This document shows positions 9,131 through 58,198 of a DNA stretch of 64,000 bases, piece after piece; the stretch's first letter is position 1, and the number at the start of each line of letters is the position of its first letter. Made by a program: the position numbers and the translations under genes. Origin of the DNA: Paramacrobiotus metropolitanus (Eukaryota; Tardigrada; Eutardigrada; Parachela; Macrobiotidae); the NCBI RefSeq assembly GCF_019649055.1, contig NW_026570276.1:186001-250000 (forward strand), read 5' to 3'. The notes beneath the pieces were generated by a model. The model had not been told where the DNA came from and did not search any database. It saw only the letters and a list, made by a program, of their open reading frames with translations.

Positions 9131-10409
9131 TTAAATGACGTGCAGATACGCTTCCTGCATGATCCACTCGTCGAGACGATCGTTGATGCGGAACCAGCAT
9201 TCGTACAGGCCGGCATCCTTCCATGTGGCGCTGTCGATCTTCATCGTCGAGCTGCACCTACCCTCTTCGTCGGCGCTGAACTCAAAACGCCCATTAAATC
9301 CCCACCACGACATGGCCTTATCGGCGACTTCCGAAATTGATTTGGCAACAAGTAAGTAATTTCCAGCGCGCCACAGGAAGCGAGTTCGTAGACGTCCGGG
9401 GAGAAAGTTGAAGCGCACTGCGCAGACCATCTCCGCTGGGTCGCCGTAGCGGACGGTGACGTTTTTCATCGGCAGATTGAAGACGTTGTGGCGGAAGAGG
9501 GTCGCGCTGACCCAGTAGCGCTGTGTCACCACATACTGGCTCCCGTTGAAGTGCTGGCATTCGTACAGTCCTGTGGCCGCGTACGTAAAGTTTGGCAGCG
9601 CAATGGAAAACGCACCAGTAGTCCGATCGTGCATTGCGCCATGCATAATAAATTCCGCCGGATTGTGATCTTTCGTCAAGTTGCAACAATGATTCACTTC
9701 CTGGAACCCTTCACTGACGACCTCGATGTCTCGAATAAGAGGAACCTGCCAATCGTTGCGGGCGTACGCCGGCGGTTTCCGGATGTCATAAACCTGTTAG
9801 CAAAGTCGACAATTAACACAAACGCATTATTATTTGTAGCTTGCAACAACGATATCAGGAGATTAAAGCCAAGAAAATCCCAACTGCGGACGATCGCCTA
9901 AAGAAAGGCCAATCAAAACGGCAAGATTTCACGACGAAGCGAATCTGACCGTGGAAAGCAAACAAGCTTGTTCACCCCGTAACAGTAACAGGACACATAA
10001 CAAAAAATTTCTCGCGTAATATTAAAGTCTTGATATCCCAGATACGCACCCTTTGCGTGTTGTAACTGTTGTTGGTGTTGTTGCAGGGAATCAGCAGTGT
10101 GCCACCCTCCGGCGCTCGAATAACCTCAGTCCCCGGCGGCCATTCCGCGATCGGGTATCCCTGGGACGACGGACCACGGCCGTAACCCTGCAGATGCATG
10201 GTTCCGCTCCCGTTACGTTGTTTGGCTTCGTTCAAGATCTGGTTCACTACGACAAAAAATAGGGCTAAATGGAAGCAGAATGAGCGCAGCTGGTCGCAAC
10301 TGCATGGTCCCTTCACCTTAGTTACACGAAGCTGCGGTGATACTTTGTACGACACATACTGACATAAAATACCGATAATATCTAAATACAGCGGATGCAA
10401 GGAAAACAC
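9131..10409 (-). CDS. secreted protein with two immunoglobulin domains (Ig gene 1)
   Basis: There are two exons: about 10409-10050 and 9793-9131, joined in phase 0 (donor GTGCGT at 10049-10044, acceptor CAG ending at 9794). Exon 1 carries a hydrophobic leader (LALFFVVVNQIL) and the first strand Cys of Ig domain 1 (GGTLLIPC). Exon 2 completes domain 1 (TGLYEC) and holds domain 2 (AEMVC paired with AGLYEC). An extra HCC pair probably adds disulphides, and there are several N-x-S/T sites. It ends directly after domain 2 without a membrane anchor, so it should be secreted. It is paralogous to the plus-strand gene at 56.9 kb, with the same intron position and phase. The N terminus is odd: the ATG that matches the paralogue start (at 10305) is one base out of frame with the leader. 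The frame-compatible ATG at 10409 gives a longer, unusual N terminus. Recognition or adhesion is a guess from the fold. Confidence 0.8.
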
Positions 10410-32234: not shown

Positions 32235-35125
32235 TCACACATAATCGGTCAAGGCCGGTTTCCGGTGCGAGTGCTTTTCCGCCTTAACCAGCGTCTCCCG
32301 CAGCTCGCGGATGTTGTCCATGAATTTCTTAACGCGGCCCTCATCCACGTCGTTGTACCACAGGCCGCCCTTCTTGAACTCCGATCCCACAATCATCCCG
32401 TGACAATTATTGGCGAAGGCGTGCAGGGTGTCGGCCGTGACACCCGAGCCCAGCAGCACCGGGATGTCCACTTTTTTCATCGTCACTGTCAATTTTGCAG
32501 ATACAACATCAAATTACCGAATTTAATAGGACAAATTTCTTTGGCACAAAAATAACAATTGCATTTTATCTGCTGGAAAACTAAAACTAACCCATAAACA
32601 ATTGTACGAATTATGAGATAAATAGCTCAAAATATTAAGCAACAGTTATTGCAGAATAAAAATTATAAAATCAATAATAAACAAATTAAATTTTTATTCA
32701 TAGGCGTTTACTGCAAATTCATACCGTGTCATCACGTATTTAACTATTTCTTTATGCACTGCTGGACTGTAAAGCTTAAAAGCGTGTCAAGAAAGGAAAG
32801 AAACATGCAAACCCGTTATTTTCACGGAAATTCAAGTGTACTGTATAAAAAAATATTAAGCGGAAATATACGAGTGCGATAAAAGAAAAATCCGAAATCG
32901 GTAAGATTTTCGAAAATTAAGTACTATTTTAATTGCGTTTATTCCAAAGGATGCGCAAAGTGCAATATAAAATCCGCATTATAAATAAAATATTATTAAC
33001 TATAAATTAAATAATTTTTACAATAGGTTTATTATGTAAACGATCCGCCAAGTGCACCATAAAATCCGTCGTTATTACGTAATGATGTCTTTCTAAGATT
33101 TACGTAAGTATCCAGAAAAACATCCCAAAAAGAAGCCGGAACGAAATTCTCGTTACGCGTTAGCGACAAAAGGATCGGAAATGAAAAACTGCTACAGCAA
33201 CGCATGATGCAAGCCAAACTGGGAAGGGCGCATCAAGGGGCTCGCATCTTACCAGCTGCCTCCTAAAAATACAAACAGACCGTCAGCGCCGCGCCATTAA
33301 CACTCTAACAGGCCGCGTCTGCGCCTTGCCAACATGCCAACGAATGTCAACAGCCAGCGCACCTGGGGATCTGCCGCTTTGCCCGTCCTTTCGCCGCTGA
33401 TGATCACGCCGTCAGCGAGAAAAAACTCCGCCGCATGCGCCACATCCTGCACTTTCAGGTCGGCGGTGATGGCATGGGCGCTGCACAAGGGAAAAGATAT
33501 TTGTTCAAAACGCATCTAGCTTTACATAAAGAAACCGCGCAGCACAACCATAGCTTAAAAAACAGCGGCAATACTTTACATAAATTTTAAAAATAGTTTT
33601 ATTCCTTCTGTATTTTATCTATTTGTACAATTAAGATGAACAACGCGAAATTAGTTTTTTTATTTAACAGATTTTTTCAGATATTACGTACTAATAATTA
33701 AGAATTTTGGGCGAATAGAAAACCTTCACTAAGATTGAAAAATCGGAGAAAAAATTGGCAAAGTCAACAGCCGTATTACACCCAGTCATACGGTACTAAG
33801 TACGTTCCACTGTGACTACGCTGCACATTAATTTCGAACAACTGTTCTGTACACAATGTACTGCGCCATTTAAAGTGTGGTTTTCATAGTTTACTGATTA
33901 GCCAGTGTACTACGATAGCTCACACTTCCATAGCCTGCCAGAAACTGAAACGAAGTAATTTAGTTTTTACAATGAGAATTTCAGTGAAAATATGTAGCGC
34001 CCTTTCTTAAAATTTAATGTCATCACTCTGTCTGAGTAAAAAGAGAATTTCTTTAAAAAAACCTGTCCGTAAATTATCTCATATGTACAGTACTCGAGTA
34101 ATCACTAAAATAGCACAAATTAAATTCGAAAAATACGACAAATAAAATGGAAACATGATAGGATGACAGGATAGTTAGAAGGAAAAATATTTTCAAAAAA
34201 AGATATATTCATGAAAAGTTGCCTCCGTAAATTATTTAAAAATCACTAAAATAACACAAATTCAATTCGAACGTTAATACGACAAATAACAGTACAATGA
34301 CTTCTCTTAAAAAAATAAGTGAAAAATTCAAGTCTAAAAGTTTGGGGAATAATAATCATTTGAAATAAAATAACTAAAAATTGTACAAATTTTGAAGACA
34401 TGGTGAAAACGTTCGGTAACTAAAATGTACTGGCGTACTTGTGGTGCTTTCTAATATCGGCGAAAATCTTGACGCTCTCCGCTCCGATGGTCTTGCGGAA
34501 GCGCAGCAGTTCCCCCGCACAGGCATCCACAATGCCCTGATCCCCCACGGAGCTGAAGACGAATCCCTCCGCTCGGATAAAATTCAAATCACACGCCTGC
34601 GCCACGGCCATCGCTTCCAAATTGGCCTCCGCCAGAATCTGCACACCCATCGGCATCTGCGGGAACTTGCGCCGCACCTCCGCACACACCCGCGTCATGC
34701 AGGCGGTCGTCTCCGGTGACAGCCGTTCCTGTTTCAGATAGGGGATATCGTTGGTGTTCTCGAAAATCAACCCATCCTGCAACGAAAGACAAAATTCTCA
34801 GAATAAAGACGAAAATGGCCAAATCATTCCGGCGCGATGCAAGATATCCATGTAGCCGATAACGGGTAAACTACACCAGATACCAGGATTTATAGTAGTG
34901 CAGCCGGGTTTTATTTGGTGCCTTCGCCAGACCTACCAAGCCGTGTTTCACATACTTCTCTGCGTCGCTGCACGCGTGCGCGATGATGTCGTCGAGGGAT
35001 TTCGAGTGCAAAGGGGATCCGGGAAGAGCGTCAACATGGACAGCACCGATAATCACCGTATCATCGCGTCCAAACAGCTTCTCGAAGGCCTTCAAGGGGT
35101 CTTCGCTTCTGGGATTCGCAGACAT
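32235..35125 (-). CDS. BtpA-family TIM-barrel protein, copy A
   Basis: Five exons, 35125-34937, 34776-34439, 33480-33363, 33262-33253 and 32485-32235, sum to 906 nt, an intact 301-aa frame. Family motifs appear in order: IIGAVHVDALPGSP (strand 1), DGLIFENTNDIPY, GVQILAEANLEAMAVAQA, FIRAEGFVF followed by DQG, DGVIISGERTGKAADP, and PVLLGSGVT with MIVGSEFKKGG near the C terminus. BtpA was named for photosystem I biogenesis in cyanobacteria. Animal homologues (C. elegans F13E9.13 type) have no settled function; a metabolic or nucleotide-related TIM-barrel role is inference. The fourth exon is only 10 nt. No signal peptide is obvious and the start MSANPRSED looks cytosolic. It is followed in the same orientation by copy B upstream at 36-39.5 kb, which has identical intron positions. 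Confidence 0.9.
33253..33262 (-). other. 10-nt microexon of BtpA-like copy A
   Basis: On the minus strand the sequence GAGGCAGCTG is flanked by TTTTTAG and GTAAGA. Splicing it in adds Glu-Ala-Ala plus one base and turns the phase-0 donor of exon 3 into the phase 1 needed by exon 5. Without it the frame is lost. The paralogue has the same microexon. Confidence 0.9.
34070..34300. repeat. degenerate direct repeat inside intron 2 of copy A
   Basis: The phrases CCGTAAATTAT, AATCACTAAAATAGCACAAA and TACGACAAATA occur twice in the same order about 160 bp apart, with point differences. Confidence 0.6.
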
Positions 35126-35996
35126 TCTGGCTGCAGCAGCAACGAATCAGCAACAAGATTACAAGAAAACCGAAAGACGAAAAATAGGACCTACAAACTC
35201 GCAAGATGAACGAATATACAGTATACTCCCTGGTAATTTAAGTTTACTACTAATACACTTTTGTACTACGTAGATAAGTAACCATAAATGATAAGTAACA
35301 AAATTGTAAATTTTCTAGAAACTGACAAACTGTTGCAAACTCGGATAGACAAAGAGGAAAAGCCCGAAGTGCAGTTTTCCGTTCTGCGGAAAACGCAGTG
35401 GCAGTTTGTAACGCAGTGGCAGTTTCCGGTGAGCACATGGAAACAGCGAGATGCGCCATATATCGAAGCGGACACCTTTTCCAGTTTTTCTGATTTTTGA
35501 ATTTATTTAAAGAGTAAGCTATGTTATTAATTTATGAACGCACGTATACTTATTTAATTTTATTTCATACGTAAAATTCAGTTCATAGGTCATATCACGG
35601 AAAAATGTGAAAAAAACCGGTTCTGAAGCGAGTATTGCGCAATTTGGTCGAGATTTCCCTAATAAAATGAGGACATTTTAAACATACTGTACCTAATCAG
35701 GCTAATCTAGAGCGGTTTAAAAAGTGATATTCCAATGAATACTCAAAACACGTTCAAAAATTCGTATCGTCTCTTTTTGCATTTTATTCAACAAGAAATA
35801 TTTTGGACCAACCAGCGTAAAAGTGTAACACATGTTTTGTGAAAAAAAAATCATATCGTTAAACAAAGTAATTCCACAAAACCGTCAAAATATAAAAACA
35901 CAAAAGGGCACCATTGTTCAAGAACACAGGATAAAATCCACATCGGCATAAATGATGCAGGAGGAATAAATGCCGTCCATTTAAGCAATGAGTCGC
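35126..35996. other. spacer between the two BtpA-like genes
   Basis: The spacer is about 870 bp, probably the promoter of copy A and the 3' end of copy B. At 35375-35430 there is a small GTTTTCCG/CGGAAAAC stem and a doubled ACGCAGTGGCAGTTT. A TTTATT (AATAAA on the minus strand) near 35783 is a candidate poly(A) signal for copy B. Confidence 0.4.
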
Positions 35997-38316
35997 TCAA
36001 ATAAAATCCGAGGTGGAAGGCTTTCGGTGCGATGGCGTCTCCTGTTTCGCCATGCTTTCCCTGAGCTTTTTCAGGGTTTCCATGAAGCTGCGGATGCGCT
36101 GCTCGTCCACGGAATTGTACCACTTCCCGCCCTCTTTAAAGTCCGATCCCACGATCATCCCGTGGCAGTGATTGGCGAAGGCGTGCAGATTGTCGCGCGT
36201 CACTCCGGATCCCAATAATACCGGCAAATGGCTCGTTTTCATGGCGTCTGCAAAATGCATTACACTGTCGGACAGAAAATAAATCCGTCTCGATCCGTTG
36301 TCAATTTCTCAGACGCCTTTTTTAAATTATTTCGCATTAGTTTTTTTTTGGAGAATATTCATTAATACTTCGAAAATTAACTTAATAATATTTGCCAATA
36401 ATTTGTTCTGAAAATGAGAAAAAATGGACAACGGATCTGCATGTTACAAAATCTTTTACGAAAAATTCAAATACCGACCTCAATTTTTAAGATACATTTT
36501 TAAATGATTTATCATAAGTACTTTTTGGGAGAACACGTATTAATTTTTTCCAGATTAATCATTTATCATTTAATCTGCTGTTTTTAAAATGTCCATGCCG
36601 GGCAGCGAGGCACAGCCAAGGCAAACGATGTTGCAAAATTTCTTACCGGCTGCTTCCTATAAAAAGAAAACATGAATAAACTGACCGGAAATGAAGAACT
36701 GATATGACCTGCTATGACAGGGTCAGGATGCGAGTACCACACCTGTGGGTCGGCCGCCTGGCCGGTGCTTTTTCCCGTGATAATCACACCGTCAGCCGCG
36801 AAGAATTCCGCCGCGTGCGCCACATCGTGCACCGTCAAGTCAGCCGTGATGGCGTGCGAGCTGTGCAGAGAAATACCTTGACTTCATTTTCATGTTAGCA
36901 AAATCATATACGACGAGTAGATAGTACCAGGTACTCCTCAAAAACCACGAACAGATTGTGGAGGGGAAAAACAATAAACACTAAGGCAAAAACGCGAATT
37001 CATGCGATTGAAACACTTGCAGCACAAGTTTCAACAAGCCATTCGCCTGTTTCATAAACCACTGCACTACACACAACACATGGTAACTCGAAAATCCAGT
37101 AAATGGATCACATATACAAAATAAAACAGGTAACAGATTACGACTTCGGAATAACAAAAAAAAAAACTAAAATAGGATACTAATACACGTGTACATGCAT
37201 ATCTATCTATTTTCAAAAATTTATAAAGCAGATTAGGTTAACAGTACACTATTAGTCTATTACTACTTTCTTTAAAACCAAATTATAATCTACAAAAGTT
37301 TTCCACACTAAATTTAATTAAAAAACTGCAAGCGCGTCCTGCAAACATCAATGCAAAACAAAATGAAAATAATTATTTGGTTAATATCAGTAATCAGTGC
37401 AGCAAAACCGCGTGCTAAACTATCAAAGTACAAATAAATACTGCAGTACTTCAAAGGAAATTCGTCTACAATTTCTTCTTTCTGGGAGAAACAAAAATTA
37501 TGATCGAATGAATATATTGAAACGAGTAACGGCGCTCCGTAAAGCTCGTAGAAATTAGTACAATCAGAATTACAAGTATCTGGACAAAACTGGTACCTGT
37601 GCTTTTCTTGATGTCAGCAAATATTTTGACTTTCTCCGCACCGATATTCTTCCGAAACCGCAGCAATTCACCCGCACACGCATCCATGAAGCCCTCATCC
37701 GCAATGGCACTGAAGACGAATCCTTCCGCGCGGATAAAATCCAGATCACAGGCGTGCGCCACAGCCATGGCTTCCAAATTTCCCCCCGCCAAGATCTGCA
37801 CACCCAGCGGAATGCGGGGAAAACGCTGGCGTAACTCCGCACACACTCGCGTCATACTGGCTGTCGTCTCGGGCGTCAGTTTGTCTTTTTTCACGTAGGG
37901 AATATCGTGGGTGTTCTCGATAATCAGTCCGTCCTGGGGAAATAAACCAGCTACAAACGGAAAACCAGCAGACAACATCAGTACACTTTATGCAACGAAA
38001 CACAACTAATTCCCTGTATGAACAAACAGGGTAGCGCATTGACGATACAGAGAACATAGCGGAAGGTGACCGTGTTTAGACCAGCATATCAACATTTGCA
38101 ACACTTTCGTACCATTTCATGCTTTAGATATTTCTCTGCATCGTCGCAGGCATGATCGATGATTCTCGCCAAGGACTGAGAGTGCTTAGGAGTGCCGGGA
38201 AGAGCGGGAACATGAACGGCCCCAATTACTGCAGCGATGTCGCGGCCGAACAGTGTGCGAAAATCTCGCAGCGCTGCTGCGGAATAAGAGGACATTATCC
38301 AGCTCGTTAGTCGCAT
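35997..38316 (-). CDS. BtpA-family TIM-barrel protein, copy B
   Basis: Exons are 38316-38113 (or from the inner ATG at 38295), 37933-37597, 36860-36743, 36656-36647 (microexon) and 36247-35997. Exons 3 to 5 match copy A exactly in length (118, 10, 251 nt). Motifs are VIGAVHVPALPGTP, DGLIIENTHDIPY, GVQILAGGNLEAMAVAHA, FIRAEGFVFSAIADEG, DGVIITGKSTGQAADP and PVLLGSGVT. Exon 2 is 337 nt instead of 338: one A is missing in the A-run encoding IKKKH at about 37609-37613, which puts exon 3 out of frame as assembled. The duplicated exon 2 at 38.8 kb has the full A-run there. The gene is therefore either lightly broken or affected by a homopolymer error. Same intron layout as copy A, so a tandem paralogue. 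Confidence 0.8.
36647..36656 (-). other. 10-nt microexon of BtpA-like copy B
   Basis: On the minus strand GAAGCAGCCG is flanked by TTTATAG and GTAAGA. It encodes the same Glu-Ala-Ala-plus-one-base as the microexon of copy A, with synonymous third-position changes, and likewise is needed to keep frame. Confidence 0.9.
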
Positions 38317-38538: not shown

Positions 38539-39743
38539 CGCGTCCTGCAAACATCAATGCAAAACAAAATGAAAATAATTATTTGGTTAATATCAGTAAT
38601 CAGTGCAGCAAAACCGCGTGCTAAACTATCAAAGTACAAATAAATACTGCAGTACTTCAAAGGAAATTCGTCTACAATTTCTTCTTTCTGGGAGAAACAA
38701 AAATTATGATCGAATGAATATATTGAAACGAGTAACGGCGCTCCGTAAAGCTCGTAGAAATTAGTACAATCAGAATTACAAGTATCTGGACAAAACTGGT
38801 ACCTGTGCTTTTTCTTGATGTCAGCAAATATTTTGACTTTCTCCGCACCGATATTCTTCCGAAACCGCAGCAATTCACCCGCACACGCATCCATGAAGCC
38901 CTCATCCGCAATGGCACTGAAGACGAATCCTTCCGCGCGGATAAAATCCAGATCACAGGCGTGCGCCACAGCCATGGCTTCCAAATTTCCCCCCGCCAAG
39001 ATCTGCACACCCAGCGGAATGCGGGGAAAACGCTGGCGTAACTCCGCACACACTCGCGTCATACTGGCTGTCGTCTCGGGCGTCAGTTTGTCTTTTCACG
39101 TAGGGAATATCGTGGGTGTTCTCGATAATCAGTCCGTCCTGGGGAAATAAACCAGCTACAAACGGAAAACCAGCAGACAACATCAGTACACTTTATGCAA
39201 CGAAACACAACTAATTCCCTGTATGAACAAACAGGGTAGCGCATTGACGATACAGAGAACATAGCGGAAGGTGACCGTGTTTAGACCAGCATATCAACAT
39301 TTGCAACACTTTCGTACCATTTCATGCTTTAGATATTTCTCTGCATCGTCGCAGGCATGATCGATGATTCTCGCCAAGGACTGAGAGTGCTTAGGAGTGC
39401 CGGGAAGAGCGGGAACATGAACGGCCCCAATTACTGCAGCGATGTCGCGGCCGAACAGTGTGCGAAAATCTCGCAGCGCTGCTGCGGAATAAGAGGACAT
39501 TATCCAGCTCGTTAGTCGCATTTTCTATCAAGCAGAGCGCAAGTACAATTCATCCAGAGGTTTTATTAGCATGAGTGTAAATGTGTTATAGCAGAAAAAT
39601 CAGACATAGGAATGACAGGACGATCAGAAACGCATAACAAAATGGCAGTACGAAGTTCGAACTCCGACGTTTCCGGTTTCGCTTTTGAGTTTTGCAAACA
39701 CTTGCATTGTGGCGTACCGAGGCGAAGAATGGGATAAAGTAGA
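38539..39743. repeat. tandem duplication, unit 2 (1205 bp)
   Basis: It repeats 37333-38538. Differences seen are one extra A in the IKKKH-coding run and two fewer A in the KKDK-coding run, both read on the minus strand. Confidence 0.9.
38803..39521 (-). pseudogene. duplicated exons 1-2 of BtpA-like copy B
   Basis: Exon 1' (39521-39318) and exon 2' (39138-38803) repeat copy B's first two exons with intact splice sites, but no exons 3 to 5 follow before copy B itself. Exon 2' is 336 nt: two A are missing in the run encoding KKDK at about 39095-39098, shifting the frame after DIPYVK. Its other A-run, IKKKH, is correct, the mirror image of copy B. It may be a true partial duplication, used as alternative first exons or dead, or an assembly duplication of one locus. 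Confidence 0.75.
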
Positions 39744-40211
39744 CGTGACTGGCTGCCTTGTTACGTCACTGTACCGTACAGAAAGAACACCATACAGAAG
39801 TGAACGAGTAGGTAGTACTTACCAAAGAAACGTCAGTTCAAACTTCAAAGTTTAAACCTCATGTACATGTTGAATAATTTATTATGATTGCTCTATCTTT
39901 TTGAAGTTAGAATAAAAAAAGGATCACAAAATTTAGATATGAAAAAACTGGCAAAGTGCACTGATTTGCACCACGTCGATCACGATGATGAGGAATAAAA
40001 TTACTGTACGTCTTAATCTTGCCGGAAAGCAGCGTCATAGTATGTACATTACTACATACACGAGTAAACTGTAAAAGTACGACATGTACGGTGCTAATAA
40101 TTTTATAATAATAGTAAAATCAATTATACGATCAAGTAAGTGATAATTATTTCTACGTATCAGTTGGCTAGTACAATACCATGTACATCATTGCAAATCT
40201 GCATGTACTGA

Positions 40212-56870: not shown

Positions 56871-58198
56871 ATGTCACCGCAGCGTCACCGTCAATGCCCG
56901 CCTCCAAGGAGAGCAAGAAACATGCAGCTGTCACCTGTTGCGTTTACTTTCATTATTTTAACCATACATTTCTGTTTAGTGAACCAGCTTTTGAACGAAG
57001 CCAAACAACTCAACGACAAAGGCATCATGCACCTGCACGGCTATGGGAGCGGTCCGTCGACGCGGAATTATCCAATATCGGAATGGCCGCCACACACGGA
57101 GATCATTCGAGCGCCAGAAGGCGGCACACTTTTCGTTCCTTGTAGCAACGCGAACAAGAAGCAAGTATGTACACGTACAAGACATTATCATCAGTCAGTG
57201 CATTCTTGTTCGCTTTCAGAACATACCGGTAGCTACTAGAAAGCGTCGTTCTAGAACGGGTGCACTTAAAAGTAGACTTGGACGACTTCGTACCGTGCCA
57301 TAGATTATGTAAATCTTAAAACGAGATAGGAGTCGCAATATGTAATTGAAAGAGCCGTCTTTCTAATGCGTCAAGGAACATCAAACAAATTTTCGCCCTA
57401 AAACGTTTATACAATGTGCCAGACAGTAATATTACAAGTTACAAACCGGTTCGGGTTTGCGAAGTTATTTTCACATTGTCGGTTTCCATCAGACTTGTTC
57501 AAGTAAACGACTGCCGGCTTTACACACAGGTGTCCCATATCGCGATTCCGCCGGCCTTCACATACAACGGAGAGCATTTCACTATCAAAAATGCGGAAAT
57601 TACAAGAGAATCGTCCGAGGAAATGAAGTTTTGTTGCAACTGTACCAAAGAAATTTGTACCGGTGAACACCTTGGGTCGAGGCTGCGGGTGTCCGGGTAT
57701 GATCCGGCGACGGGTGCGTTTTCCATCGCGTTGGAGCGCTTCACGTACGCCCACACCGGCCTGTACGAGTGCCTGCACTCTAACGGGAGCCAGCTGGTGG
57801 TGACACGGCGCTACTGGGTCACTCCGCGACACATTCGCTACCACGTCTTCGATCCGCCGATGCAGAACGTCACCGTCCGCTACGGCGACCCAGCTAAGAT
57901 AGTCTGCCCGGTTCGCTTCAATTACCTGCCCGGCGACCTGACGGCCCGCTTTTTGTGGCGCAAGGGAAGATACTTGCTTTTGGTTAAGTCCATCCCGCAA
58001 GTTAAAGATAGCGCCAGGTCGCCGTATGGTTTCAGTGGACACTTTGAGTTCGACAGAGGCGAACGGTGCGGATGCAATTCCATAATGAAGATAAATAATG
58101 TCACAAGGGAACACGCCGGTGTGTACGAATGCTGGTTCCGCATCAACGATCGTCTGGATGAATGGATTATGCAAGAAGCTCATCTGCTTGTCATTTAA
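56871..58198 (+). CDS. secreted protein with two immunoglobulin domains (Ig gene 2)
   Basis: Exon 1 (start ATG 56871, or more likely 56922, to 57164) and exon 2 (57530-58198) join in phase 0 (donor GTATGT, acceptor CACACAG). From 56922 the product is about 303 aa. It has a signal peptide (LSPVAFTFIILTIHFCLV) and domain 1 split by the intron (GGTLFVPC in exon 1, TGLYEC in exon 2). A Cys cluster KFCCNC follows, then domain 2 (KIVCPVRF paired with AGVYEC), with N-x-T sites. It stops at HLLVI with no anchor. The paralogue at 9.1-10.4 kb on the other strand shares intron position, both Cys pairs and the end WIMQEAxLxVI. Unlike gene 1, the leader here is in frame with its ATG. Likely an extracellular recognition protein; ligand unknown. 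Confidence 0.85.

Follow-up and report, generated by a model that had tools for sequence, protein, structure and literature searches.

The question raised by this locus is whether two tandem genes of the BtpA family in the tardigrade Paramacrobiotus metropolitanus depend, for their reading frame and for their protein, on an exon of only 10 nucleotides (nt). The genes, here named copies A and B, are carried on the minus strand of a 64,000-nt stretch of contig NW_026570276.1 (positions 186,001 to 250,000; hereafter the window, to which all coordinates refer) and have the same five-exon layout. In both of them a 10-nt cassette, preceded by AG and followed by GTAAGA, was found at 33262-33253 (A, with TTTTTAG immediately upstream) and at 36656-36647 (B, with TTTATAG immediately upstream). 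The two cassettes, GAGGCAGCTG in A and GAAGCAGCCG in B, differ at two positions, each of them a synonymous third position. Very probably, they represent a constitutively included coding microexon that is older than the duplication of A and B and has been kept by selection on frame and protein.

Frame, phase and protein family

The layout of both copies is as follows.

34937-35125, minus strand: copy A exon 1, 189 nt, ATG start (the Pfam BtpA match is on the spliced product)
34439-34776, minus strand: copy A exon 2, 338 nt
33363-33480, minus strand: copy A exon 3, 118 nt, phase 0 end after ...ADPQ
33263-33362, minus strand: copy A intron 3, 100 nt, GTGCGC...TTTTTAG
33253-33262, minus strand: copy A 10-nt putative microexon GAGGCAGCTG, Glu-Ala-Ala plus G
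32486-33252, minus strand: copy A intron 4, 767 nt, GTAAGA...GACAG
32235-32485, minus strand: copy A exon 5, 251 nt including the stop, with the GSGVT motif
38113-38295, minus strand: copy B exon 1, 183 nt
37597-37933, minus strand: copy B exon 2, 337 nt as assembled, lacking one A close to the 3' end, where the frame is lost
36743-36860, minus strand: copy B exon 3, 118 nt
36657-36742, minus strand: copy B intron 3, 86 nt
36647-36656, minus strand: copy B 10-nt putative microexon GAAGCAGCCG, Glu-Ala-Ala plus G
36248-36646, minus strand: copy B intron 4, 399 nt, GTAAGA...TTTTGCAG
35997-36247, minus strand: copy B exon 5, 251 nt including the stop

Spliced together, the five exons of copy A amount to 906 nt in a single open frame of 301 amino acids. 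This reproduces the exact open frame that an earlier sequence-only reading of this DNA had given with the cassette included; the position of the cassettes, their AG and GT flanks and their coding content of Glu-Ala-Ala plus one base, with synonymous differences only, were also as it had described. In copy A the phase is 0 at the end of exon 3 and 1 at the end of the 10-nt exon, the joining proposed in that reading, and exon 5 opens with two bases of a codon. When the cassette is omitted, copy A reads ...ADPQ followed by an immediate stop and copy B reads ...ADPQTP, with the stop two codons on, so that a gene model without the 10 nt is truncated before GSGVT in both copies, as had been anticipated. 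With 10 nt in A and in B, the cassette is within the 15 nt or less taken as the length of a microexon, it is flanked by an acceptor and a donor, and its position is internal to the coding region. A required 10-nt microexon, which was the interpretation offered, gives the best-supported gene model of both copies.

The product of copy A matched the Pfam family BtpA (PF03437) with 216.8 bits (E 4.3e-64) over profile positions 4-252 of 254, the curated cut-off for this BtpA/SgcQ family being 30 bits. The prokaryotic homologues used for comparison were the best 80 of at least 517 relatives (among at least 592 aligned stretches), all 80 being used, and a second, 9-protein profile was made from nine plasmid genes out of 191 plasmid records matched. 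The span from T208 to L230 is 23 residues in all 80 aligned homologues and in A and B with the exon. In an alignment-free count, the distance from TG to P was equal to that of copy A in 74 of the 80; the six deviating homologues were two with RTA for RTG, two with an extra TG just before P and two without the P...GSG pattern. With the phase at 0 where exon 3 stops and two bases of a codon at the start of exon 5, this spacing demands exactly 10 nt. A single-protein scan for homologues yielded 31 pattern matches, none of them a relative.

The genes are like the bacterial and archaeal members of the BtpA/SgcQ family (PF03437) in their profile match and in the equal spacing around the microexon site, and unlike them in their four introns, whereas each of the nine plasmid genes is annotated as one uninterrupted coding sequence. 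The C-terminal part of the product aligned with one solved structure, 5ey5_A (LBCATS-a; E 1.6e-5), which we take to be a TIM barrel of the TrpA type; if so, the residues of the microexon would start the helix before the GSGVT strand of a TIM-barrel-like enzyme. In addition, genes for TenA, a Zn-dependent hydrolase or a sugar kinase adjoin some of the bacterial and archaeal relatives (L004, L006, L007, L008, L009), and these neighbours are a possible hint at the function of the BtpA family.

Gene models, intron comparison and the duplicated copies

Enumeration of GT-AG gene models gave 1,913 for copy A and 1,930 for copy B, with an open frame in 218 (11%) and 293 (15%), respectively. Among the open models, the one with the 10-nt exon ranked first in both copies, with the 9-protein as well as with the 80-protein profile. 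None of the enumerated direct GT-AG joins of exon 3 to exon 5 was open in A; 11 were open in B, none of which shares its geometry with a direct model in A. A geometry common to A and B was found in 14 models. In two of these the cassettes of the copies resemble each other (8 of 10 bases), and the cassette is in each case the present 10-nt exon: one model keeps the end of exon 3 listed above, and the other has its donor 45 nt earlier. The next-best cassette pair among the 14 agreed at 3 of 10 bases. With GC donors permitted, the 10-nt model was the first of 1,290 distinct proteins in copy B.

Stop-free AG-N10-GT cassettes more than 40 nt from the intron ends numbered two in A and one in B, and EAA was the sole same-peptide match between the copies among stop-free cassettes of 3n+1 length from 7 to 60 nt. 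When both introns were dinucleotide-shuffled in 5,000 pairs (cassettes of 7-30 nt), a shared peptide of three or more residues never appeared and one of two or more residues appeared 35 times. The top ungapped similarity between intron stretches of A and B is the microexon with its flanks (24 of 29 positions, score 19), which was reached in one of 600 shuffles. Moreover, the pattern TAGGARGCNGCNGGTAAGA had two matches in the 169.8 Mb genome, both of them these cassettes, and the reversed pattern had none. Gene conversion between A and B as the source of the common cassette was rejected, because the flanking introns show only short, weak or out-of-order similarity and 32 of 77 four-fold sites differ.

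In exons 2, 3 and 5 of A and B, 45 of the 77 four-fold sites are identical, and the identity at first, second and third codon positions is 0.79, 0.86 and 0.53, respectively. This pattern indicates that the duplication is old and that selection has acted on the proteins; the microexon was most likely present before A and B separated.

Copy B as assembled gives 899 nt, and its frame is lost in exon 2, where one A is short near 37604. This weighs against the reading given above, as do the points gathered in the next section: the coding status of copy B is unproved, given the frameshift, and therefore only its exons 3-5 support the microexon in frame. The picture of two tandem intact genes in the sequence-only reading was too strong: only copy A is open as assembled, and a third, partial copy had been overlooked.

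38539-39745 (about), minus strand: partial copy C, a duplicate of copy B from its upstream region through exon 1, intron 1 and exon 2 into intron 2

Copy C has no microexon because the duplicate ends before exon 3. It matches the stretch of B at about 38540-37333 with no substitutions in about 1.2 kb and with two differences in poly-A length, C being two bases short at one and B one base short at the other, each of which breaks the frame of one copy. A search of the genome for the BtpA family gave eight matches, all in this cluster (three to the first exon, three to the second and two to the last). The near-identity of B and C looks like the result either of an error in the assembly of long reads or of a tandem duplication of very recent date. 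PMC8277472 describes the assembly of Paramacrobiotus sp. TYO as built from Nanopore reads with Canu and having a guanine plus cytosine (G+C) content of 43.46%, and the P. metropolitanus genome is given in PMC11191345, a study of male and female transcriptomes, as 170 Mbp and Canu-built; the G+C content of the window is 40-44%. The poly-A frame breaks in B and C matter for counts of functional copies.

Splice signals and competing explanations

The donor of the microexon matches the consensus CAGGTAAGT at 7 of 9 positions in both copies, and the other six donors match it at 5 or 6. Its acceptor tract holds 11 and 12 pyrimidines of 15, the range in the other acceptors being 7 to 12. Vertebrate neural nSR100 microexons, which are also very short internal exons, have a UGC close upstream of the acceptor, are alternatively spliced and are mostly multiples of 3 in length, the latter being usual and not absolute. 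The tardigrade exon, in contrast, is 10 nt long (3n+1) and is required by the frame, and no UGC was found near its acceptor: the sole TGC in intron 3 of A starts 99 nt before the 3' end, and intron 3 of B has none. A neural-type splicing programme for this microexon is therefore unlikely.

According to Yu et al. (2022; PMC8831610), constitutive microexons of humans have stronger splice sites; in addition, since the two sites of a microexon cannot both be in use together, its flanking introns are in competition, and the removal of one of them is delayed. From the splice-site strengths and this rule of competing introns, we infer constitutive use of the exon and stepwise removal of its introns. 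With 10 nt, the exon would be too short for simultaneous occupancy of its two splice sites, so that each flanking intron would be recognised as a unit and the two introns removed in turn. Three features may favour inclusion: an upstream intron of no more than 100 nt in A and 86 nt in B, an acceptor rich in pyrimidines, and a GTAAGA donor that is narrowly the best match of either gene. To the protein, the exon would contribute Glu-Ala-Ala together with the base that opens the following codon, immediately ahead of the GSGVT strand; skipping it would shift the frame and lose everything from the GSGVT motif onward, a cost by which selection would hold inclusion high.

The remaining points on the other side of the balance concern signals, scores and conservation. 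The advantage of the microexon donor is of one base, and the acceptor before exon 5 is poor in pyrimidines in both copies (7 and 8 of 15). When GC donors were permitted in copy A, which gave 1,432 distinct proteins, the 10-nt model took 11th place by the 9-protein profile and 2nd place by the 80-protein profile, outscored by 10 and by one other open product, respectively. Frame or protein score alone was therefore rejected as proof, since other open models score near the 10-nt model or, with GC donors, above it, and conservation is required. As to conservation, 8 identical bases of 10 are unremarkable at the four-fold-site identity of the copies (P 0.14), at which the 29-nt block reaches only P 0.005. 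A second intron similarity (33194-33168 and 36704-36678, minus strand; 22 of 27 positions, score 17, reached in 6 of 600 shuffles) follows the microexon in A but precedes it in B; this stretch had no further match in the window at up to 7 mismatches. It must be noted that the sequence-only reading had deduced selection from the synonymous differences alone. This was too strong, as two of two changes falling on the three third positions of the 10 have P 0.067, and the P value given above for the identity of the 10 nt makes them equally insufficient by themselves. The stronger evidence for the microexon is the homologue spacing, the intron comparison and the enumeration of models.

The competing explanation that survives best, although we consider it improbable, is that of a real but regulated microexon, of which inclusion would give the enzyme and skipping a protein cut before GSGVT, the 3n+1 length acting as an on/off switch. 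Skipping does give an early stop inside the last exon in both copies, and the donors of the preceding intron, GTGCGC and GTGTGG, agree with the consensus at 6 of 9 positions, no better than those of the other introns. However, the vertebrate neural signal is lacking, no other donor in the gene matches as well as that of the microexon, and a product cut at this point has no evident use. Less room still is left for genes without a microexon, in which exons 3 and 5 would be joined directly by way of shifted sites and the conserved block would act within the intron, for instance as a splicing enhancer or a recursive splice site. The 11 open GT-AG joins of B (such as exon 3 ending at 36741 and spliced to 36264) and at least one join of A that is open when its donor is GC (exon 3 ending at 33359) would allow it, but no such GT-AG join is open in A, no direct model has a geometry common to both copies, the best products score lower than those with the exon (94.4 vs. 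97.5 in A; 98.4 vs. 100.7 in B), and the spacing kept in all 80 aligned homologues would be altered. Finally, a chance AG...GT that restores the frame in decaying gene copies can practically be discarded: open GT-AG models are indeed common in both copies, B is frameshifted and C is partial, but the same cassette and peptide occur in both copies (0 of 5,000 shuffles), and most differences between A and B in exons 2, 3 and 5 are at third positions, as under purifying selection.

Relation to known microexons and meaning

The constitutive microexon proposed for A and B has its closest parallel in the conserved microexons of plants, which, according to Yu et al. (2022; PMC8831610), are internal exons of 1-15 nt, shared between species and mostly absent from reference annotations, whose omission leads to a frameshift or an early stop; about 50% of them, and about 80% of human microexons, are multiples of 3. 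The tardigrade exon is like them in being very short, conserved and frame-critical, and unlike them in belonging to an animal genome and to another protein family and in having its splicing predicted from the DNA. Since about 80% of human microexons are multiples of 3 according to the same source, an obligatory 3n+1 microexon is a rarer sort and not a new kind. A full-text literature search returned no paper on microexons with tardigrades, on BtpA with tardigrades or on the BtpA family with animals, and among papers on BtpA and exons, judged by their titles and abstract openings, none was on this topic. A wider proposal, that animal BtpA genes have had this obligatory 3n+1 microexon since ancient times, preserved over a long period within a metabolic barrel enzyme, and that it marks a larger unannotated set of constitutive microexons in tardigrades, spliced by intron definition without a neural programme, seems to us rather unlikely.

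Other features were recorded in the window and in the genome. Open frames at 9131-9697 (minus strand) and at 57416-58198 (plus strand) of the window match the immunoglobulin-domain families ig and V-set, respectively, above the curated cut-off. A search of the genome for COX1 gave no match. A lipocalin search gave two matches, one of them an FABP-like open frame; among the 60 listed of 242 matches of this frame to solved structures, the top one was ReP1-NCXSQ and no tardigrade heat-soluble protein was named. A search of the genome with the myosin head profile gave 90 matches, and three adjacent ones at G000:C37:796716-797616 (minus strand), which cover nearly the same part of that profile (87-118, 91-115 and 91-117), are perhaps mutually exclusive exons.

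With respect to the BtpA family of this tardigrade, gene models lacking the 10 nt are truncated or shifted before GSGVT, and the genes appear degenerate. The two copies would offer a clean test case, in which two old paralogues of an animal outside the usual models share an exon whose length is probably insufficient for exon definition.

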